NCBI GenBank assembly: GCA_030427805.1
Contig: JAUICP010000001.1
Coordinates: 434,001 to 498,000 of the forward strand
Direction of reading: 5' to 3'
Source of the DNA: Bdellovibrionia bacterium
GTDB lineage: Bacteria > Bdellovibrionota > Bdellovibrionia > Bdellovibrionales > JAGQZY01
Length of the DNA stretch: 64,000 nt
Shown: piece after piece, positions 6,547-45,577 of the stretch
How the letters are laid out: each line of letters begins with the position of its first letter
Position numbering within the stretch: position 1 is the first letter of the stretch
The notes under the pieces: generated by a model
The model's database searches: none
Told to the model about the DNA's origin: nothing
The model's input: only the letters and a program-made list of their open reading frames with translations
Program-made: the position numbers and the translations under genes

Positions 6547-7895
6547 TGAGACTATTTTTGTTACCGATCGCCGGGCTTCTATTGGGTCATTTAGCCCTAG
6601 CTAACGTCATTCCCATGGATGTTTATTTAAATTCTGTCAAAAATAATGATTTGTTTCTAAAGTCGATTCAAGCCAATCGAAGCCGACTAAAGTTCAATAA
6701 AGACCTCAAGTCTCCAGACTCGGCCTGGATTCTTAGTATCACCGATCAATACGGAATCTCTTCTGACAATGATAGTGATACCCATCGATTTACAGGCCAA
6801 CTATCTAAGGCTATCCCCAGTACAGGAACAGAGCTGACTTTGCAGTATAATGATAGCAAGCTCGCTGACCGGGAAGAGCAAGTTAAAACAGTCCAATTGG
6901 AGCAATCACTTCTCAAAAATGCTTTTGGATATCAAGGTCGTCTTGTTTACGAGGATCTTAATGAAGAAGACCGAAGAATCTACCTTCAATTGGTTGAAGA
7001 TTATGAAGACTATCTAGCAGAGAGAATTAAAAATTACTTGGCCTACCTATCCTCATTCGAAGACTTGAAATTAGCTAAAAAACAACTCAGCGAGGCGAGA
7101 TCGCTTTTTAAGGAGATAACTGAGAGAAAGAAAAAATCAATTGCGCGGAAAGTTGACGTGGATCGTTCGTTGGCTGAAGTGCTTGATTTTCAAAACTCTG
7201 TAATTGAGGCAGAAATGAATTTCTCATCAGCAGAAATAAAACTCTCCGAGGGATTAGGGGAAATTCAGTTAGCTAAGGTAAAGACCTTTGAGGTTCCTTT
7301 TTACTCGAGACCTATCCAGGAGATCAAGGACTCTTCAAGCCTTGTTAATTCTTCTCGTGTCGTACGATTAAAAGAGTCTGAATTAAAATCGAGTCAAATT
7401 GCCATTGATTTGAATGAAAATGACCTATGGCCCGAGTTAAAGTTTCTCGTAGGGCTCAGTGAGGATGAGTCGAGCCGTTTCGGAACAGCAGTGAATCGAA
7501 GAGAAAGCTTTTTTGGTCTTAGTTTTGAATACAAATTTGACGACTCCATAAAACGGGCAGAACTCACTCAGTCTGAATTTTTCAATCGAAAGAGAAGCCT
7601 AGAGTTAAAAGCTTTAAGAGATCAAATTCAAAAGCAAATTAGGGATAGTCGAGGCCGAGTCGAAAAACAAAAAGAACGATTAGAAATATATAAAAAACAA
7701 GTTGAGGTATTATCGCGCCTTTATAGTGAAGAACAAAGACGATTTCGGCGTGGTCGTGTTGATTTAGAAACCTTAATTGAAGTCAAAAATCGTCTTTCCC
7801 GCGCCAGAACACATTTGATTTCTCAAAAAGTCGAAGTTGCCAAAGTTATTGTCGACTATAAAGCTTTAACAGACTCCTTAGTGGAGAAGCTTTAA
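6546..7895 (+). CDS. TolC-like outer membrane efflux protein
   Basis: A 449-residue protein with a signal peptide (about residues 1-19, ending LALA-N) and two long coiled-coil blocks (about 150-235 and 340-440) rich in Glu, Lys, Arg and Gln, separated by short beta segments such as ELKFLVGLSEDE. This is the twofold repeat layout of outer-membrane channel tunnels (OEP family). The start overlaps the RND stop (TAATG), indicating translational coupling. Inferred role: outer-membrane exit duct for the preceding pump. Its end overlaps the convergent gene at 7892 by four bases. Confidence 0.88.
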   Translation: MRLFLLPIAGLLLGHLALANVIPMDVYLNSVKNNDLFLKSIQANRSRLKFNKDLKSPDSAWILSITDQYGISSDNDSDTHRFTGQLSKAIPSTGTELTLQYNDSKLADREEQVKTVQLEQSLLKNAFGYQGRLVYEDLNEEDRRIYLQLVEDYEDYLAERIKNYLAYLSSFEDLKLAKKQLSEARSLFKEITERKKKSIARKVDVDRSLAEVLDFQNSVIEAEMNFSSAEIKLSEGLGEIQLAKVKTFEVPFYSRPIQEIKDSSSLVNSSRVVRLKESELKSSQIAIDLNENDLWPELKFLVGLSEDESSRFGTAVNRRESFFGLSFEYKFDDSIKRAELTQSEFFNRKRSLELKALRDQIQKQIRDSRGRVEKQKERLEIYKKQVEVLSRLYSEEQRRFRRGRVDLETLIEVKNRLSRARTHLISQKVEVAKVIVDYKALTDSLVEKL

Positions 7896-8878
7896 TCTGT
7901 CGTATCTAAATCGAATTCCGACTCTTCGTAATCATCCCATATAAAACCGAGGTGCATGACTCGTGAGCCAACTTCGCACACGGGATTGGTCGCTTTTGCA
8001 ACAACTACGGCGTCGTTCGGGCAGACTATGGTTTCTATTTTGTTACCGTAAATATCAGATATGGTCGCGATGGTTTCGCCTTTTTTAATTTCATCCGTAA
8101 GGCCTGGAAATACTCGCAATATTCCACCGTTCTTTGCGTAGATCCACCTCGAGCTTTTACAAATAATCGCATCGTGTTCGATCTGATCCGAGGCCTCTTT
8201 AATCATTCCCAGCTCTAGAAGAACATTGTTCAATCCAAAAATTGATGTACGAACATGTTTTTTCTGAAAAATATGAGGGTCTCCAGCTTCAACCGTAATG
8301 GAGTGTATTCCCATCTGCGCGGCTTCGTATCGCAAAGTTCCCTTAGCACCCGGCTTGTTTACGATAATTTGGGGCTCTTGAAGTTCGGCCATTTTTGCCG
8401 TGACCTCATTATTCATATCAGCTCTGACATAGAGGGAATTAATTCGTCCAAAGCTCGCAGTATGAAGGTCTATTAGATATTCAAAGTGTTTTACGATTTT
8501 TGTGAGTATTTGATGGGCGTAAACTTCGCTAGTGGAGCCTGATGATTTACCAGGCATTATTCGATTGAGGTCTTGTCCGTCCGTAAATTCCCGTTTTCCA
8601 TTTAGATACCCTGGTACATTGAGCACAGGAACTAGAATTAAGGTGCCAGTAAGATTATTAGCATCAATTTTTTCCCAAAGTTTGTGGACAATTGAAATTC
8701 CATTGAGTTCGTTTCCGTGCAAAGCGGCAGTTATCCCAACAACGGGTCCATCATCACCTTTAGCTATCATCAAGGGGATTTGCCAAAAATCTCCAAGGGC
8801 GTTTTTAACTGTGTTGAGCTTAAAGGTGCCCTTACTATGATTCTTTATTTTCTTTAAATCAATTTCATCAATAATCAT
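7892..8878 (-). CDS. Succinylglutamate desuccinylase/aspartoacylase family (M14-like) metallo-deacylase
   Basis: A 328-residue protein with AALHGNELNG (zinc His and Glu), GQDLNRIMPG (substrate-binding Asn-Arg), YLIDLHTASFGR (third zinc ligand) and ITVEAGDP (catalytic Glu region), followed by a beta-rich C-terminal domain. Known members (AstE, AspA) remove acyl groups from N-acyl amino acids; the exact substrate here is unknown. It is translationally coupled (ATGA overlap) to the ATP-grasp gene upstream. A second such enzyme lies at 51751-52779, also beside an ATP-grasp gene, which points to a making-and-breaking pair acting on an amide or peptide conjugate. Confidence 0.85.
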   Translation of the reverse strand: MIIDEIDLKKIKNHSKGTFKLNTVKNALGDFWQIPLMIAKGDDGPVVGITAALHGNELNGISIVHKLWEKIDANNLTGTLILVPVLNVPGYLNGKREFTDGQDLNRIMPGKSSGSTSEVYAHQILTKIVKHFEYLIDLHTASFGRINSLYVRADMNNEVTAKMAELQEPQIIVNKPGAKGTLRYEAAQMGIHSITVEAGDPHIFQKKHVRTSIFGLNNVLLELGMIKEASDQIEHDAIICKSSRWIYAKNGGILRVFPGLTDEIKKGETIATISDIYGNKIETIVCPNDAVVVAKATNPVCEVGSRVMHLGFIWDDYEESEFDLDTTD

Positions 8879-10302
8879 CTAACTAAAATCTCATCAACGA
8901 GTGAGTGGTCATTGTCGAGCGACTTAAACAGTTTCAATCGAAAGTTACCCTTTTTATTTAAAAGGTATTCTGCCATTTTATCAATTGCAATTATCGACAA
9001 TACCGACTGAATAAATGCTTCAATTAAATCGTCAGTACCAATGCCTAGAGAGTTAAAATCCTTGCGATCCATAAGCATAAGGCGACTCGTATCGGATTCC
9101 CATTGGTTTGGTCCCGTTTTAATAGATAAGTTTGTACCAAGAACTTCCCAGCTAGACTCAGATACCTCAGCTTGAAGAGGCTTGAGAGCCTTTCTTGAAT
9201 AAATAGCACAGGGGATGAATCCTTGGGGTGAAGAATAGAGCATCATTCTTAAGTCAGAGATATAACTGTTTCCCTTTTTGTTTGGAACAGTACCAATGTG
9301 ATAAAACTTACCTTCAGAACCATGGGAGCTCCAATTGTAGTGACCGATCAAGCTTTGCACAATAAACTGATCGTACTCGTGCTCTTCTTCCATAAAGTCA
9401 TTAAGTTCTTTTTCACTCGTGATTGTGTAAACACCCTGTCCGGCGTTGGAGTATGGATTCTTAATAACTGCATTTCCCCCATACCGTTGCACCCAAAGAG
9501 GGATCTCAACCTTACTAACGTCTCTTATAGTTTCAGGTGTGTTAATTTTTAACCCAGTATCCATAATTTCGGAGTTATAAAACTCATAGGCTTTATCCGC
9601 GAGGAGTTTGTTTCGTCCACCCGCCAAACAAACTAGTGTAGAGTTATAGATGAATGTTTTGGTTTCTACAGGAATTCGATTCCATGGCTTTTGCGTGACA
9701 TAGCGAAAGGCCGCTCGAATGGGGAATTTTTCACCCTCATGATCAATATAAAGGACTCCGTCTTCAAAGTGATAAAATTTGTCCTCGCCATTCATGCATG
9801 GAACCAGGTAGACAGTTTCTCCAGTTAAATCAGCAATGGTATTGGCGTATCCACTATTTTCCATATAGTTTTTGTCATAAATGACAGCTAAGGCTCCCTT
9901 CGGGAGTCTCTTCTTTTTAATTTTTGGTAAGAAGGAGTTTTCGATAAGAAAGCGATACCCTCTGTACTCATCGACATCTGTTCTCAGGGGCATCGATTTT
10001 TGTCCGGAAGGGCAGGAGTTTGTCTCTAGGATGACCATTTTCCGATTTCCGTATTCTGTTGTTACATAGAATAGGTCGGCCCCTCCCCAATGAAAGTGCT
10101 TGGACTGATAGCCGAGAATTTCTTTTAGTACAGACTGGTCAACTTGTGGGTTGAGATGACAGTATCTTTTAATAATTCGCTCGTGGTCGAGGTTAAAGAA
10201 GAAGCCTACCATGGCGTGCAATTGCGAATTAAGAGCCTTTGGATAGAAGTGAGATTCTTGTTCGAAGTTGTTAGGAGTGATTATTTCAACTGAGCTCGCC
10301 AT
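8875..10302 (-). CDS. ATP-grasp-like protein paired with M14 deacylase
   Basis: About 475 residues. Near residue 105 VILETNSCPSGQKS resembles the Asn-containing Mg/ATP loop of ATP-grasp enzymes, and about residues 275-330 (NAVIKNPYSNAGQGVYTI, then EYDQFIVQSLIG) match the Lys and Gly-rich ATP-binding strands. Such enzymes join a carboxylate to an amine; the substrate is unknown. The frame extends to a TTG at 10374, but ATG 10302 has a GGAAGG seven bases upstream, and a good promoter (10347-10374) overlaps the longer version, so the shorter start is chosen. Overlaps the deacylase gene by four bases. Confidence 0.7.
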   Translation of the reverse strand: MASSVEIITPNNFEQESHFYPKALNSQLHAMVGFFFNLDHERIIKRYCHLNPQVDQSVLKEILGYQSKHFHWGGADLFYVTTEYGNRKMVILETNSCPSGQKSMPLRTDVDEYRGYRFLIENSFLPKIKKKRLPKGALAVIYDKNYMENSGYANTIADLTGETVYLVPCMNGEDKFYHFEDGVLYIDHEGEKFPIRAAFRYVTQKPWNRIPVETKTFIYNSTLVCLAGGRNKLLADKAYEFYNSEIMDTGLKINTPETIRDVSKVEIPLWVQRYGGNAVIKNPYSNAGQGVYTITSEKELNDFMEEEHEYDQFIVQSLIGHYNWSSHGSEGKFYHIGTVPNKKGNSYISDLRMMLYSSPQGFIPCAIYSRKALKPLQAEVSESSWEVLGTNLSIKTGPNQWESDTSRLMLMDRKDFNSLGIGTDDLIEAFIQSVLSIIAIDKMAEYLLNKKGNFRLKLFKSLDNDHSLVDEILVR

Positions 10303-39382: not shown

Positions 39383-39730
39383 TTACAAGCCTTCTTCTTT
39401 GTATTGATGCACGGCTTGCATGGCTTCGATGCCGTAGACAACAGAGGGGCCGCCACCCATGAGGATTGCTACTCCAATAGTCTCAGCAATTTCATTTTCA
39501 GTAGCACCAGATTTCATCGCATCGTGAACGTGGTAGGCGATACAACCATCACAGCGAACAGTAATTGCGATAGCCATGGCAACCAATTCTTTTGTTTTTG
39601 TGTCGAGAGCACCATCAGCGATTGTGTTTTCGTGAAGCTGACCGAAGCCACCCATTGTCCCTGGGATCGCGGCGCCGAGTTTTTCCATCCAAGTGTTAAG
39701 TTCTTTGTACTGAGCTGGAAAGTTCTTCAT
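39383..39730 (-). CDS. Carboxymuconolactone decarboxylase/AhpD-like protein
   Basis: About 115 residues, all helical. VRCDGCIAYHVHDAMKSGAT carries the Cys-x-x-Cys and His of AhpD-like peroxidase-linked reductases, and TKELVAMAIAITV precedes it as in the family. It may reduce peroxides or transfer a disulfide. GGAGG lies five bases before the ATG at 39730, so that start is chosen over 39742. Confidence 0.87.
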   Translation of the reverse strand: MKNFPAQYKELNTWMEKLGAAIPGTMGGFGQLHENTIADGALDTKTKELVAMAIAITVRCDGCIAYHVHDAMKSGATENEIAETIGVAILMGGGPSVVYGIEAMQAVHQYKEEGL

Positions 39731-39757
39731 ATATTCCTCCATTGTATGGATTAGTTG

Positions 39758-40645
39758 CTAGTATTTGCTGAGGTAGTTTTTAAGCTCTTCATTTCCATTG
39801 AGAGTGCAATTTCTGATTGCTACGTCAGTTATATTAAACTCAGATAAATCAATATTGTTAAGTGTGCAATTCTCAAATTTGCATTTATGAACTTTTCCTT
39901 CTTTCCACGTCACATTGTTTAGTTGAGCCTTGTTAAAGCTTGTTCCGTGGAATTGTAGTTCCGAAAACTTGCAGTTCTCAAAGTGACTATGGGTCAAATT
40001 GACTCCATGAAACTGCACTTCTGACACATTAGATTTTACAAATTCAGTATGCTTGGTCGAAGTCCCGTGAAATTCACATTCACTCAGTTCGCTATTGTTT
40101 GAAACACTAAGGCTATTCACCTTTGAGCCGTGAAACTGACATTCACTAATCGTACTCTCTTCGATTTTGAGATCATCGATTGAGCTTCCGTGAATTTGGC
40201 TTTCGGTCATTTGGCCGTGGCTTATAAAGAGGTTTTTAAGTGAAGAGGCATGAACTTGATTTTCATTAAAAACCGCAGAATGTTCAAAGTGAAGATTTTT
40301 AACTGAAGACATTTGGATAGAGTTATCTTCGTATTCGTAGTCTGATCCAGTAATACCGCTGACCCTTGAGACTTTAATATCGTTGTCGCCTCCGGAGTCA
40401 CCAAGGTCGATCTTTATTTCATGATTTCCTAATTTACTATTGAGCTTGCCAAACTTTCCGGCTAACGCACTATTGATCGCGCCACTAATAAAGTCACCCA
40501 AGCTATCGAATTCAGGGGTGGAGTCTGTGCTCTTGCTTGTGTTGTTATCTTCCTTTTTAAGAGCGGCAATCAATTCAGCGGCTTGTTCAGTAGTGATTTC
40601 GCCCCGCTGAGACATTTCGATGATTTCAGTGATTTCTCTTTCCAT
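39758..40645 (-). CDS. Pentapeptide-like 20-residue repeat (QFHG) protein with SHOCT-like N-terminus
   Basis: A 295-residue soluble protein. Residues about 1-31 form a short helix pair (EIIEMSQRGEITTEQAAELI), about 32-110 a linker. From about 120 to 265 come seven units of about 20 residues with an anchor Q/V/I/F-H-G (VHASS, IHGSS, FHGSK, FHGTS, FHGVN, FHGTS, then KVHKC). Twenty is four pentapeptides, i.e. one turn of a right-handed quadrilateral beta-helix. Its partner upstream is a DUF2089 protein with a similar helix pair. AGGGGG precedes the ATG. No known function. Confidence 0.7.
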   Translation of the reverse strand: MEREITEIIEMSQRGEITTEQAAELIAALKKEDNNTSKSTDSTPEFDSLGDFISGAINSALAGKFGKLNSKLGNHEIKIDLGDSGGDNDIKVSRVSGITGSDYEYEDNSIQMSSVKNLHFEHSAVFNENQVHASSLKNLFISHGQMTESQIHGSSIDDLKIEESTISECQFHGSKVNSLSVSNNSELSECEFHGTSTKHTEFVKSNVSEVQFHGVNLTHSHFENCKFSELQFHGTSFNKAQLNNVTWKEGKVHKCKFENCTLNNIDLSEFNITDVAIRNCTLNGNEELKNYLSKY

Positions 40646-40653
40646 GTTTCCCC

Positions 40654-41094
40654 CTAATTAGATTGGATCGACTTTAATTGTTTGAGGGCAGCCTGATAGT
40701 CAATCTCGCCCTCCTTGAGTTTTGTTAATACGGCCATGGCATCATTGGATTCTGATGGCTGAGGCTCTCCCTTTTTCTTTTTCTCGCTCTCCTGAAGTTG
40801 AGGTGATTCGCCGGGGGAGAGTTTTTTTTTGACGGCGCTTATCTTCGCCTTAACGGTCGGGTAGCTCACGCCGAGTGCTTTTTCTAGATCCCGAATTCGT
40901 CCCTCGCAATGGATAAAGAGTCTTACAAAGTGAAGGTCTTCACTATCGAGTTGGAGGGATTCCAGGGGACTGAAGTGGGCTTTCACTTCGAGTTCGCAGG
41001 GATCGCAGCGCATTATTTTAGGAGCCATAAGCTCCTGGCAACTAGGACATTTAATATTCGACTTAATATTTTTCATTGATAAGGGGTTTATCAT
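40654..41094 (-). CDS. DUF2089 zinc-ribbon/helix-turn-helix protein
   Basis: A 146-residue protein: CPSCQELMAPKIMRCDPCEL is a CxxC-x10-CxxC zinc ribbon, followed by LHFVRLFIHCEGRIRDLEKA and LGVSYPTVKAKISAVKKKL, the helix-turn-helix of DUF2089. A Lys/Glu/Ser-rich linker then leads to LKEGEIDYQAALKQLKSI, a helix pair resembling the one that starts the next gene. Likely a transcription regulator acting with that protein; nine bases separate the two genes. Start not fixed: ATG 41094 and 41076 both lack a Shine-Dalgarno. Confidence 0.75.
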   Translation of the reverse strand: MINPLSMKNIKSNIKCPSCQELMAPKIMRCDPCELEVKAHFSPLESLQLDSEDLHFVRLFIHCEGRIRDLEKALGVSYPTVKAKISAVKKKLSPGESPQLQESEKKKKGEPQPSESNDAMAVLTKLKEGEIDYQAALKQLKSIQSN

Positions 41095-41309: not shown

Positions 41310-41324
41310 ATAGGTATCACCTAT
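41310..41324. promoter_or_regulatory. ATAGGT-N3-ACCTAT inverted repeat
   Basis: Perfect six-base arms around ATC, located about 107 bases before the preferred isnA start and overlapping the alternative ATG at 41323. Candidate operator. Confidence 0.35.
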
Positions 41325-41430
41325 GATTAGTATGGAGGCTATTGATTATATTAAAGAGGGGACTTGTTTTAACTATTCAGTAAGGCAACGACATAGTGTT
41401 GGAGCCGACCTCAGCCAAAAGGGGATAAGA

Positions 41431-42522
41431 ATGAAAGTATTAGAGCAAGCTCACGCCGCCAATTTGAATAACCAAGTTGATGTCCATTCTCAGTCCAATC
41501 GGGAGCTCGGCGCATTCGATCTTAGAATATTGAAAACTCCAGCAACGGAGATTCTAAAAAAATTGATGCCTTTTCGACGAGTGGTTCGAGGTCACGAATC
41601 CTGCCGAAACTCTGCTTGCCCGACATGCATGGCTCCACATATCAAAAAGGTCCAATCTGCAGTAGCGCAAAACCAAGCCATTCAATTCGTATTACCGGCT
41701 TTTCCGGGAAAGTCTCCCAATCTCGCGAAAGTTTTAGGAGCAAACCCTGATATGGCTGAACGCCTGTCCCTTCAATTTTTACACGATCTTTGTGAGCAAA
41801 TTAAAGATGTGTATGAACCAGGAGCCCACATTATTCTTTGTTCCGATGGAAGGGTGTTTAGTGATGTCGTGCAAATTCCAGAAGAAGATATCACTCAATA
41901 TCAAATTGAACTCGATAAGATAATCGAAGAATTGAATCTAACCAATTTGTCGACCTTCAACCTCGATCAGATTTGTGAGATTAAGAGTTTTGATGAATTG
42001 CGAATCGACCTTATGGAGGAGTACGGTCAATCGCTCGAAATCTTAAGAAGCAAAGTAAAGGCCGGTTCACAAGAAAATTCAACAGATGAAGAGAGTGAAC
42101 TAAACCGTCTCTACTGTGGAATGACTCGTTTTCTAGTAGAGGATTCATCCTTTCCGGGGCAATCTAAAAGTCGGACAGCGATTCAAAAGGATTGTCGTAA
42201 AAGAGCCTACGAAGTGATTCGTCGAAGTAATGCGTGGAGTGCTTTGCTTGCAGAGGTTTTCCCCCAGGCCGTACGTTTATCAATTCATCCCCAGTCTTGT
42301 GGATCACAAAAATTTGGAATTCAATTAATCGGTATCGAGAATTGGATGACCCCTTGGCATGGAGTCGCGGTTAAGACCGAAGAAGGTTTTACATTGATGA
42401 AGCGATTTGAAGTAGAAAAGCTACAATCCAGTCTTGTAAAAGATTCTGAAGGTCGGCCCAGTCATTTCGAGCTTGTGCAACATAATGATTCCATTTATAG
42501 AGATCAAAGTAATGAACTTTAA
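41431..42522 (+). CDS. isnA: Isocyanide (isonitrile) synthase, PvcA/IsnA/DIT1 family
   Basis: About 363 residues. FVLPAFPGKSPNLAKVLGANP (about 87-107) and IILCSDGRVFSDVV (134-147) are the main family motifs; an upstream CRNSACPTC cluster and the later RLSIHPQSCGSQKFGI and TPWHGVAV complete the pattern. Known members turn an amino acid (Trp or Tyr) and a pentose phosphate into an isonitrile carboxylate. AGGGG lies eight bases before ATG 41431; a longer start at 41323 adds 36 residues with no site. First of four coupled genes; the next is the usual partner IsnB/PvcB. Confidence 0.9.
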   Translation: MKVLEQAHAANLNNQVDVHSQSNRELGAFDLRILKTPATEILKKLMPFRRVVRGHESCRNSACPTCMAPHIKKVQSAVAQNQAIQFVLPAFPGKSPNLAKVLGANPDMAERLSLQFLHDLCEQIKDVYEPGAHIILCSDGRVFSDVVQIPEEDITQYQIELDKIIEELNLTNLSTFNLDQICEIKSFDELRIDLMEEYGQSLEILRSKVKAGSQENSTDEESELNRLYCGMTRFLVEDSSFPGQSKSRTAIQKDCRKRAYEVIRRSNAWSALLAEVFPQAVRLSIHPQSCGSQKFGIQLIGIENWMTPWHGVAVKTEEGFTLMKRFEVEKLQSSLVKDSEGRPSHFELVQHNDSIYRDQSNEL

Positions 42523-43348
42523 GACGACTTCTTTACAGCCTTTTGGACTATTGATTGAGCCACTCACGGAGGGTCAAGATATACGTGGTCTTCGAATCGA
42601 AGATTTACGCCCTCTTTTTGCTCAATATCACTTGGTTGTTCTACGTGGTTTTTCTTCTTTTTCAAGTTCTGATGATTTTTCTGACTACTGTGAAAGTTGG
42701 GGGGAGATTAGTCTCTGGCCATTTGGAAAAGTCCTTGAGTTAGTTGAACAGAAAAACCCCGAAGATCATATATTTGATCACAACTATGTGCCCATGCACT
42801 GGGATGGTATGTATCGTCCCCAGGTTCCTGAACTGCAGGTTTTCTCTTGTGTGAGTGCGCCCAGGAATGAACAGGGCGGGAGAACAACCTTTTCACTGAC
42901 ACCTCGAGTGATTGAAAATGCCTCGCCAAAGCTTCGAGAGTTATGGCAAAAAGTAACTGGCGTTTATCAAAGGAAAATGGAGTTTTACGACAGTAAGACC
43001 GAAGCTCCCATTATCTGTAAGCATCCTAATCGAGAATTTTCTGTAATTCGATATTGTGAACTTCCGAAGTCAGAGGATGAAAGTTTTGTGAATCATCCTA
43101 ATTGTGAATTTAAAGGATTACCCGAATCAATGCTTGCGGAATTTCACCAAAGTTTAACGGAAGCCCTTTATCACCCAGATAACTTTTATGCCCATCAATG
43201 GCAAACTGGTGATGTGGTGCTTTCAGATAACTATACTCTCTTGCACGGCAGGGAGGCTTTTACCAGTGGCTCGTCGAGACATCTGCGAAGAGTCCATGTA
43301 CTAGGTCGTCCAAAACTTGATAACCCTCACTTGGTGTACCACTCATGA
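42512..43348 (+). CDS. isnB: Fe(II)/2-oxoglutarate oxygenase, PvcB/IsnB-like
   Basis: About 278 residues of the TauD-type fold. VPMHWDGMY gives the H-x-D iron ligands (His96, Asp98); DNYTLLHGREAF gives the third (His245), and SSRHLRRVH supplies the 2OG-binding Arg. Family members oxidatively decarboxylate or desaturate the isonitrile acid made by IsnA to a vinyl isonitrile. ATG 42512 sits inside the isnA end (11-base overlap); the longer frame is upstream noise. Overlaps the next gene by four bases. Confidence 0.9.
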   Translation: MNFKTTSLQPFGLLIEPLTEGQDIRGLRIEDLRPLFAQYHLVVLRGFSSFSSSDDFSDYCESWGEISLWPFGKVLELVEQKNPEDHIFDHNYVPMHWDGMYRPQVPELQVFSCVSAPRNEQGGRTTFSLTPRVIENASPKLRELWQKVTGVYQRKMEFYDSKTEAPIICKHPNREFSVIRYCELPKSEDESFVNHPNCEFKGLPESMLAEFHQSLTEALYHPDNFYAHQWQTGDVVLSDNYTLLHGREAFTSGSSRHLRRVHVLGRPKLDNPHLVYHS

Positions 43349-44784
43349 ATGAAATAGAAACTGATGTTCTCATAGTCGGATCTGGACCCGTAGGTCTAAT
43401 GTGCTCCTACCTTGGTCAGCTTTGTGGATTAAAAACAATGGCTATTGATAAATCCGATGGACCTTTGCAGGTCGGTCGAGCGGATGCTTTAAATGCTCGA
43501 ACTTTGCAGCTGATGGAGATCGCTGGATTGTTTGATGAGTTGTATCCTCTGGGTAAGCCTTGTAACACCAGTTCGATTTGGGCGGAGGGGAAATTCCAGT
43601 CACGACAATCTCAGTGGTGGGATCAGTTAGAGGGTTGTCTTCACAAGCACTTTCTTATGCTGGGTCAATCTTTTGTGGAAAACCTTGTCGATAAGAAATT
43701 AAAAGAAATGAAACAGCCAGTTCGCAGGCAAACAACTGTGGAAAACATGGAAGTTCATGGGGATTTCTGCCTAACGACTCTTTCTAGCGGAGAGGTTGTA
43801 AGGTCAAAGTACATCATAGGTTCCGATGGGGCTCGATCTTTTGTGAGAAAGTTCTTCGATGTTGAGTTTGAAGTAACTATGCCGCAAATTATCTGGGCTG
43901 TGATAGATGGAGTCATTGAATCTGACTTTCCCAAAGTTCCAGAAATTATTGTTTTCCAAGCGGAGACTTCGGATGTTGCTTGGATCCCAAGAGAAGGAAC
44001 GATTGACCGATTTTATGTGAGAATGGATCGAGAGGATTTCACTATGGATGAGGCGATTGCAAAGATAAATAATGCAATGGCTCCTCATACATTAAGTTTT
44101 AAAGAAATCACATGGTCTTCTAAGTTTGCAGTTAAAGAGTCTGTTGCGGAAAAATTTATAGTTGAGGATCGAGTATTTTTAGCGGGTGACTCATGCCACA
44201 TACACTCAGTCAACGGGGGGCAGGGTTTAAATACCGGCTTGGCCGATTCATTTAATTTAATGTGGAAATTGGGTCGTGTGATCAATTACGGAGCTGATGC
44301 TCGCTTACTCAGAACCTATGAAGAAGAACGAAAGCCAGTTGCTCTTGGAGTTGTTGAGACTTCAGCTGAACTTGTTCGATCGACGAAGTACTCTAAAAGT
44401 GGCGAGCATGCGAAGGACTATGTTAAAATTGTAGAGAAACGTGCGGGTAATGTCACCGGTATGGGGATCCGGTACGGCAATGACGGACTTGTTGGTTCGA
44501 GACTTTTTGACTTTGAGCTTGAAAGCTCAACAGGATTAAAAAGGCTCTATAACGAACTCGACTACAGTAAATTTACTCTCCTAGTCTTCGGTGATGAAAA
44601 TCTTGAGGTTAATGTCCCCGATTCTGTCAATCTGATCCAGTTTTCTGAAGACGCTATTAAGACTAAAAGTGACTTTAAAAAAAGCTCCTATGAGGGTAAG
44701 GCGATATTAGTGCGCCCCGATGGTTATATAAAAGCGGTTTCAGCGGTTGATGATTTGAGCACACTTTTTTTGAAAGTCGATTAA
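43345..44784 (+). CDS. FAD-dependent aromatic hydroxylase (PheA/TfdB type)
   Basis: A 479-residue flavoprotein monooxygenase: VLIVGSGPVGLMCSYLG (FAD pyrophosphate loop, about 8-24), YIIGSDGARSFVRK (DG motif, about 155-168) and VFLAGDSCHIHSVNGGQGLN (GD motif, about 279-298), then a shorter C-terminal part. The class hydroxylates phenols and related rings. This differs from the PvcC hydroxylase (HpaB type) of the Pseudomonas cluster. Coupled to isnB (ATGA), so it probably modifies the isonitrile product. Confidence 0.88.
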   Translation: MNEIETDVLIVGSGPVGLMCSYLGQLCGLKTMAIDKSDGPLQVGRADALNARTLQLMEIAGLFDELYPLGKPCNTSSIWAEGKFQSRQSQWWDQLEGCLHKHFLMLGQSFVENLVDKKLKEMKQPVRRQTTVENMEVHGDFCLTTLSSGEVVRSKYIIGSDGARSFVRKFFDVEFEVTMPQIIWAVIDGVIESDFPKVPEIIVFQAETSDVAWIPREGTIDRFYVRMDREDFTMDEAIAKINNAMAPHTLSFKEITWSSKFAVKESVAEKFIVEDRVFLAGDSCHIHSVNGGQGLNTGLADSFNLMWKLGRVINYGADARLLRTYEEERKPVALGVVETSAELVRSTKYSKSGEHAKDYVKIVEKRAGNVTGMGIRYGNDGLVGSRLFDFELESSTGLKRLYNELDYSKFTLLVFGDENLEVNVPDSVNLIQFSEDAIKTKSDFKKSSYEGKAILVRPDGYIKAVSAVDDLSTLFLKVD

Positions 44785-44833
44785 TTTACGAATAGTTCCT
44801 TTATTTCATTGTTTTGATCAAGGAGAGATCTCA

Positions 44834-45577
44834 ATGTTCTATAAAGATATTGCCCGTTCCTACTTTGGCGCCGTTAACAACTGTGAAATTCCGCTAGTGA
44901 ATCGTCTCGTTCACGAAGACTATATTCAACACAATCCTTATTTAGAGACCGGAAGAAATCCCTTCACTGCCGTGCTACCGATCTTAAAAAAGCACCAATC
45001 AAAGATCATTAATAGACTCATACTCCAGGACGGCTCTTTTATAATTATGCACCATCAGTGGGAAAATGCTATTCCATTTGGTGCGCAAGATATCCAAGCC
45101 TTTCACATTATTCGTTTTGATGAAAACAATAAAATTGCGGAGCACTGGAGTGCAATGATGGAAATTCCTTCCGGGACCAACCCCATGGCTGGTGAAACCG
45201 AGATTGGGGATTTCGAAAGAGAGATAGAATACAGGTCGCTAATAAGTCGCCTTCATAATGAACTAAATACAGGAGAGATAGATTCTATTGATAAATTCTA
45301 TGAAGACAGTTTTACTTGTCACCAACCTCTTTTGGGCTCGGACTTGAGGTCCGTTAAAAGCTCCCTAAGATGTGACTTTGAATATCTCAAGCAACATCGG
45401 ATTTTCGCTGAAGGCAATTTTGTTTTATCCATTAGTGAGGGGTATTTTAAATCAAAACATTCAGCGATTTATGATCTCTATTGTTTAAAGAATGGACTGA
45501 TTTCGGAACAATGGACTGTATTGCAAGACATCCCTAAAGAAAACCTAGCTAATTCAAATGGTATGTTCGGCTTCTAA
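44834..45577 (+). CDS. Protein with two SnoaL/NTF2-like domains
   Basis: A 247-residue protein made of two cone-shaped folds. The first (1-115) has VNRLVHEDYIQHNPYLETGR and QAFHIIRFDENNKIAEHWSA, typical of SnoaL-like proteins; the second (about 128-240) repeats the pattern in weaker form (IDKFYEDSFTCHQPLLGSDL, YCLKNGLISEQWTVLQDIP). SnoaL-like domains cyclise, isomerise or bind small molecules. AAGGAGA is seven bases before ATG, 49 bases after the hydroxylase; final gene of the isonitrile operon. Confidence 0.8.
   Translation: MFYKDIARSYFGAVNNCEIPLVNRLVHEDYIQHNPYLETGRNPFTAVLPILKKHQSKIINRLILQDGSFIIMHHQWENAIPFGAQDIQAFHIIRFDENNKIAEHWSAMMEIPSGTNPMAGETEIGDFEREIEYRSLISRLHNELNTGEIDSIDKFYEDSFTCHQPLLGSDLRSVKSSLRCDFEYLKQHRIFAEGNFVLSISEGYFKSKHSAIYDLYCLKNGLISEQWTVLQDIPKENLANSNGMFGF

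Follow-up and report, generated by a model that had tools for sequence, protein, structure and literature searches.

A probable tyrosine-isonitrile operon with an accessory SnoaL-fold gene in a Bdellovibrionota genome

What does an operon make that begins with an isonitrile synthase and a desaturase and ends with a flavoprotein hydroxylase and a SnoaL-fold protein? The four genes lie at 41431-45577 of the window, the whole stretch of 64,000 nucleotides that was analysed, in a 4.5 Mb genome of the Bdellovibrionota whose nearest named relative, a Bdellovibrionia MAG, has a 96% identical IsnA. They had been predicted to form a four-gene isonitrile operon, and all four co-directional reading frames and their families were confirmed. 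We consider it reasonably probable that the locus is a tyrosine-isonitrile operon of a recurring isnA-isnB-FMO class, to which an accessory SnoaL-fold gene has been added, and that its product is hydroxylated. Gene identities, active-site motifs and the conserved linkage of isnA-isnB-FMO were computed.

Genes of the operon and their surroundings

The operon consists of the following genes (coordinates in the window, strand, description, basis):

41431..42522, + strand: isnA, isonitrile synthase (363 aa, PF05141); Pfam, NCBIfam and PDB matches, start from the codon-position substitution pattern
42509..43348, + strand: isnB, PvcB/IsnB-type Fe(II)/2-oxoglutarate desaturase (279 aa); TauD, PDB PvcB/PIsnB matches
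43345..44784, + strand: FAD-dependent phenol-hydroxylase-type monooxygenase (FMO, 479 aa), NCBIfam PRK07190 family; NF005531, FAD_binding_3 and Rng_hyd_C
44834..45577, + strand: tandem SnoaL/NTF2-like protein (247 aa), operon-specific subfamily; SnoaL_2, AF2 model, fold neighbours

The genes had been described as overlapping. This holds for isnA and isnB (14 bp) and for isnB and the FMO gene (4 bp), but the SnoaL gene follows after a 49 bp gap. Compared with a same-genus relative whose proteins are 89-96% identical, substitutions at codon positions 1/2/3 number 7/6/49 in isnA, 12/4/39 in isnB, 23/8/123 in the FMO gene and 16/8/44 in the SnoaL gene. Because substitutions pile up at third positions in every gene, the four reading frames are not due to chance and all four are under purifying selection. 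The same comparison spoke against a longer isnA frame starting at 41323, which was rejected: over 41323-41430 the substitutions number 3/3/2, and 6 of the 36 codons differ in their amino acid. This segment is probably non-coding, and 41431, the start given originally, is the better one.

Neighbouring genes were considered as operon members and rejected. Upstream, genes for DUF2089, pentapeptide, AhpD and thioesterase proteins lie on the opposite strand and are not conserved with isn genes beyond the genus; downstream, a gene for a GltP-like symporter is also on the opposite strand and has no conserved isn linkage outside the genus. One gamma MAG carries a GltP relative (28%) near isn genes. 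GltP matches in sister genera, used for an empty-site comparison, were only 36-40% identical, too distant to read the insertion point. At 39383-41094 (- strand) the window encodes DUF2089-HTH and SHOCT/pentapeptide-repeat proteins, adjoining an AhpD-like gene and divergent from isnA, an arrangement found beside isn genes within the genus only. Iron control through a Fur-like box was rejected, as the window gave no match even when 3 mismatches to the E. coli consensus were tolerated, and a promoter scan gave matches no better than those in shuffled sequence. Carriage by phage was rejected, as isnA relatives were absent from the viral contigs searched.

The synthase, the flavoprotein and their operon class

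IsnA falls deep within PF05141 (DIT1_PvcA; E=1e-78, 266 bits against a cut-off of 26.4, profile positions 1-270 of 273), and its PDB matches are PvcA (3e59, 5e-75) and 9dh4 (4e-70). Isonitrile biosynthesis is thus well supported. The motifs KSPN and SDGRVFSD, whose absence from homologues would have spoken against it, are both present in the window protein; across FMO-class IsnA proteins KSPN occurs in 47/47 and SDGRVF(S/N)D in 44/47. The score for the L-tyrosine isonitrile synthase family of PvcA (NF045653; 6.4e-86, 288 bits) is below the equivalog cut-off of 600, so IsnA is not filed as PvcA itself, despite their grouping in the tree. There, the FMO class, PvcA and 9dh4 form one clade (100/99), with the P450-class synthases apart. 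This clade, from a tree that contained no Trp-specific IsnA, favours tyrosine as the substrate without proving it; of the two amino acids in the original prediction, tryptophan now appears less likely. Enzymes of the PvcA/IsnA type convert an amino group to an isonitrile, whose carbon they take from a pentose phosphate. By analogy with characterised homologues, IsnA would act in this way on L-tyrosine to give tyrosine isonitrile.

The third protein matches FAD_binding_3 (PF01494; 6.9e-64) and Rng_hyd_C (2.2e-6), and scores 828 bits against NF005531 (PRK07190; curated cut-off 530), an NCBIfam family with no assigned function. Its PDB sequence neighbours are VibO and phenol 2-monooxygenase, and a predicted model of moderate confidence (pLDDT 72) has OxyS, VibO, phenol hydroxylase and MtmOIV as fold neighbours. 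The PheA/TfdB-type assignment made earlier therefore stands, by sequence as well as by this model.

The nearest well-known counterpart is pvcABCD (paerucumarin) of Pseudomonas aeruginosa, in which PvcA/PvcB-type genes are likewise followed by a flavin-dependent aromatic hydroxylase. PvcC, however, is an HpaB-type flavin monooxygenase, whereas the window hydroxylase is PheA/PRK07190-type; the window operon also has the extra SnoaL-fold gene, and its IsnB carries Arg and Cys where the pvc type has Leu and Cys (see below). Neither a PvcC-like nor a PvcD-like gene was found among window genes 3 and 4 or the flanking genes scanned. Since the hydroxylase family is unrelated and PvcD is absent, this is not a pvc operon, though the two would work alike. 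A second likeness is to the isnAB genes for rhabduscin and byelyankacin (Xenorhabdus, Photorhabdus), where IsnA and then IsnB produce a tyrosine-derived vinyl isonitrile and IsnB has a basic residue at the K107 position of PIsnB. Rhabduscin and byelyankacin clusters add a glycosyltransferase, in place of which the window has the FAD monooxygenase and the SnoaL gene.

PF05141 is present in 43/369 Bdellovibrionota genomes, which divide into 26 with isnA-isnB-FMO, 13 with isnA-isnB-P450 and 4 with fragments or unclear loci. Outside the genus, FMO-class proteins are ~51-63% (IsnB) and ~53-68% (FMO) identical to those of the window. Twenty-nine of 45 Legionella species have PF05141, with a divergent LysR-like gene beside it; 17 are of the FMO class, whose FMO genes were read in part because the loci end inside them, and 12 of the P450 class. 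The FMO class also occurs on a Burkholderia stagnalis replicon and in gamma MAGs, while PF05141 was found in only 4/369 evenly drawn Gammaproteobacteria, two of them Legionella. The class thus recurs in two groups of bacteria whose members live on or within other cells. The "unusual tailoring set" of the original prediction needs correction in this respect: isnA-isnB-FMO is a recurring arrangement, and it is the SnoaL gene that is rare.

PtxR, which lies beside pvc, is a LysR-type regulator. A divergent LysR gene also flanks many sister isnA-isnB-FMO operons, but none adjoins the window operon. In Pseudomonas, PtxR activates pvc (PMC3639982). The Legionella survey of 2016 described only a P450-linked class, in which a PF05141 and Fe/2OG pair stands by an HTH regulator (PMC5126622). 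That class is present at the 13 Bdellovibrionota P450 loci and is otherwise similar to the window operon, but the PRK07190 FMO takes the place of the P450, and P450-class IsnA and IsnB fall outside the FMO-class clades. The FMO class appears to be undescribed; no account of it was found in the open-access literature searched, which is a weak sign of novelty.

The link between PRK07190 and isonitrile genes is almost exclusive. Among the 29/369 Bdellovibrionota genomes with a PRK07190 protein above the cut-off, 26 have it in an isn operon, counting G217 and G277, where the operon is split between contigs; of the other three, G194 and G140 hold decayed remnants, and in G071 the gene lies at a contig end. 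The FMO is therefore a dedicated partner of isn operons, and a likely function can now be proposed for this unnamed flavoprotein family.

Several further arrangements were seen at these loci. In G194 (L116, ~6553-9156) a LysR coding sequence runs into a truncated isnB, isnA is deleted and the FMO gene is near full length. In G140 (L118, 6401-8580) an FMO fragment precedes a full-length ATP-grasp gene; with an isonitrile operon of the P450 class (L072) elsewhere in the genome, this may be a case of class replacement. A glycosyltransferase gene is added at 2/13 Bdellovibrionota P450-class loci: L071 and L072 read isnA-isnB-P450-glycosyltransferase, resembling rhabduscin-type logic plus a P450, and their IsnB diagnostic residues, His and Ala, are outside both published signatures. 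Five Legionella species have a second, very divergent PF05141 protein, encoded ~17-21 kb away from the first in G378, G383, G393 and G394 and on another contig in G382 (L151); partner genes were not recognised in the one locus read.

The slot after the FMO gene is variable. In six operons (L073, L079, L086, L094, L005, L006) an ATP-grasp ligase-like gene (PF13535) lies directly 3' of the FMO gene. The SnoaL subfamily adjoins six FMO-class operons from five Bdellovibrionota families, co-directionally in the window, its genus mate, G217, G273 and G368, and adjacent on the opposite strand in G029; the gene is lacking from most operons of the FMO class. With the ATP-grasp gene taking the place of SnoaL in other operons, the slot seems to be where these operons diversify.

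The desaturase and the type of product

IsnB matches TauD (5.5e-44) and resembles PvcB (3.6e-89, 302 bits) and PIsnB (7tcl; 7e-76, 258 bits) over its full length; the H-x-D...H metal triad reported originally is intact and conserved. Two positions distinguish the products of such enzymes. Lys or Arg at 107 with Asn or His at 188 is the signature of vinyl-isonitrile (PIsnB-type) enzymes, and Leu at 107 with Cys at 188 that of isocyanoacrylate (PvcB-type) enzymes (PMC9467999). The window IsnB is mixed, with Arg at the K107 position and Cys at the N188 position. Arg is found in all FMO-class IsnB examined; at the second position nearly all have Asn and a single one has Ser; the window genus, G029 and G273 have Cys. 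An N194C mutant of PIsnB-Ah, which like the window IsnB combines a basic residue with Cys, gave an unchanged product (PMC9467999). This makes us lean, without certainty, towards a vinyl isonitrile.

The Cys keeps an isocyanoacrylate possible. IsnB would then retain the CO2, the FMO would hydroxylate the ring, and closure to an isocyano-coumarin would follow with the SnoaL protein as cyclase. The higher PvcB score of IsnB agrees with such a pvc-like product, as does the confinement of the Cys state to SnoaL-linked operons. The ATP-grasp gene of sister operons also suggests a carboxylate: ATP-grasp ligase-type enzymes normally activate one, which is at odds with a decarboxylated product. However, the first position is Arg and not Leu, the SnoaL-linked G368 and G217 have Asn at the second, and, as Cys arose within a single clade, its co-occurrence with SnoaL counts as about one event. 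Taken together, we regard the isocyano-coumarin as a rather unlikely product. Cys188 was also rejected as a marker that SnoaL operons acquired repeatedly and independently, since it is confined to one clade and does not occur in G368 or G217.

For the preferred vinyl isonitrile, characterised homologues suggest that IsnB would desaturate tyrosine isonitrile and most likely release CO2, giving 4-(2-isocyanovinyl)phenol. The FMO would hydroxylate the phenol ring, most likely at the ortho position, to a catechol isonitrile; its family and its linkage point to this step, in which it would fill the role of the unrelated HpaB-type PvcC. A hydroxylated aromatic isonitrile, made by a PF01494 and Rng_hyd_C enzyme unrelated to PvcC, is thus a fair prediction from the families, as first proposed. 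Besides ring hydroxylation, we infer the tyrosine substrate, the order of steps, the role of the SnoaL protein and the biological purpose. Since isonitriles are ligands of copper and iron, and rhabduscin is an inhibitor of insect phenoloxidase, metal capture and defence against protists are candidate roles for which the predicted products could be tested. The metal-scavenging or antibacterial action first suggested stays a conjecture.

The SnoaL-fold protein

The fourth protein matches SnoaL_2 at 2.4e-8, its first domain scoring 34.9 bits (cut-off 27) and its second 15.5 bits, under the cut-off. An AF2 model (mean pLDDT 92) predicts two NTF2-like domains in tandem and the two halves align with each other at E=3e-5, in agreement with the two SnoaL domains originally recognised, the second being weak by sequence. 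Fold neighbours in the PDB are Lsd19, MonB, IdmH, SnoaL and AknH, at ~12-17% identity. The protein thus has the NTF2-like fold in common with the polyketide cyclases SnoaL, AknH and IdmH and, like the epoxide hydrolases Lsd19 and MonB, carries two such domains in one chain. It differs from both groups in its operon-specific residues: all six operon proteins share H-x-W-x-N-A-x-P-x-G and A-x-H-x-I-R-F, which are absent from stand-alone tandem relatives. His33, His91, Glu103 and His104 are invariant, and the pocket around His74 is conserved. The Asp of EHWD in those relatives is replaced by Ser or Asn in all six, which makes a classical SnoaL acid/base mechanism doubtful, and the second domain is shortened in the operon proteins except those of the window genus. 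As a guess constrained by the fold, the protein may cyclise or tautomerise the hydroxylated product, which is redox-sensitive, or may bind it.

Epoxidation and Baeyer-Villiger chemistry also occur among FMOs of this group (VibO, MtmOIV). The FMO could accordingly epoxidise the vinyl isonitrile, or oxidise the side chain, and the SnoaL protein open or cyclise the epoxide in the manner of Lsd19 and MonB. In the PDB, the SnoaL model is indeed closest in fold to Lsd19 and MonBI/MonBII, which are tandem epoxide hydrolase/cyclases (E ~1e-11 to 1e-10). However, TM-scores over the tandem are only ~0.4 and domain packing differs, so that the match may reflect merely two NTF2 domains per chain; in addition, the SnoaL gene is missing from most FMO-class operons and known PheA-type relatives act on phenols. 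We consider this route very unlikely.

The SnoaL gene might instead stand outside the pathway, either placed there by chance or encoding a COG4922-like stress protein. Stand-alone tandem SnoaL proteins do occur elsewhere in the phylum without isn genes, several beside LysR genes, and the window protein, set off by its 49 bp gap, shows the fastest amino-acid change of the four. Against this, five families have a gene of the same subfamily next to the FMO gene, in G273 and G368 with an overlap of 4-11 bp at the FMO stop, and the residues shared by the operon proteins set them apart from the stand-alone relatives. An unconnected gene is therefore improbable, and an accessory role in the operon is preferred.

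The original prediction knew of no SnoaL partner in an isonitrile operon, and we found none in the incomplete open-access literature searched. No SnoaL-type accessory gene near isnA was matched in Legionella operons. More tentatively, isnA-isnB-PRK07190 could be a major undescribed isonitrile pathway class of Bdellovibrionota and Legionella, with catechol isonitriles as the products of the FMO; in one sub-branch these might be turned into a new isonitrile scaffold by a tandem SnoaL protein put to a new use, a reaction that the NTF2-like fold is not known to catalyse. The SnoaL branch would offer a clean test case for a fold having acquired a new reaction. A single origin of the association is disfavoured, as forcing the six IsnA proteins into one clade gave an AU p=0.017, and the IsnB tree places SnoaL-linked operons in two separate groups. 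SnoaL genes thus appear to have joined FMO-class operons at least twice.
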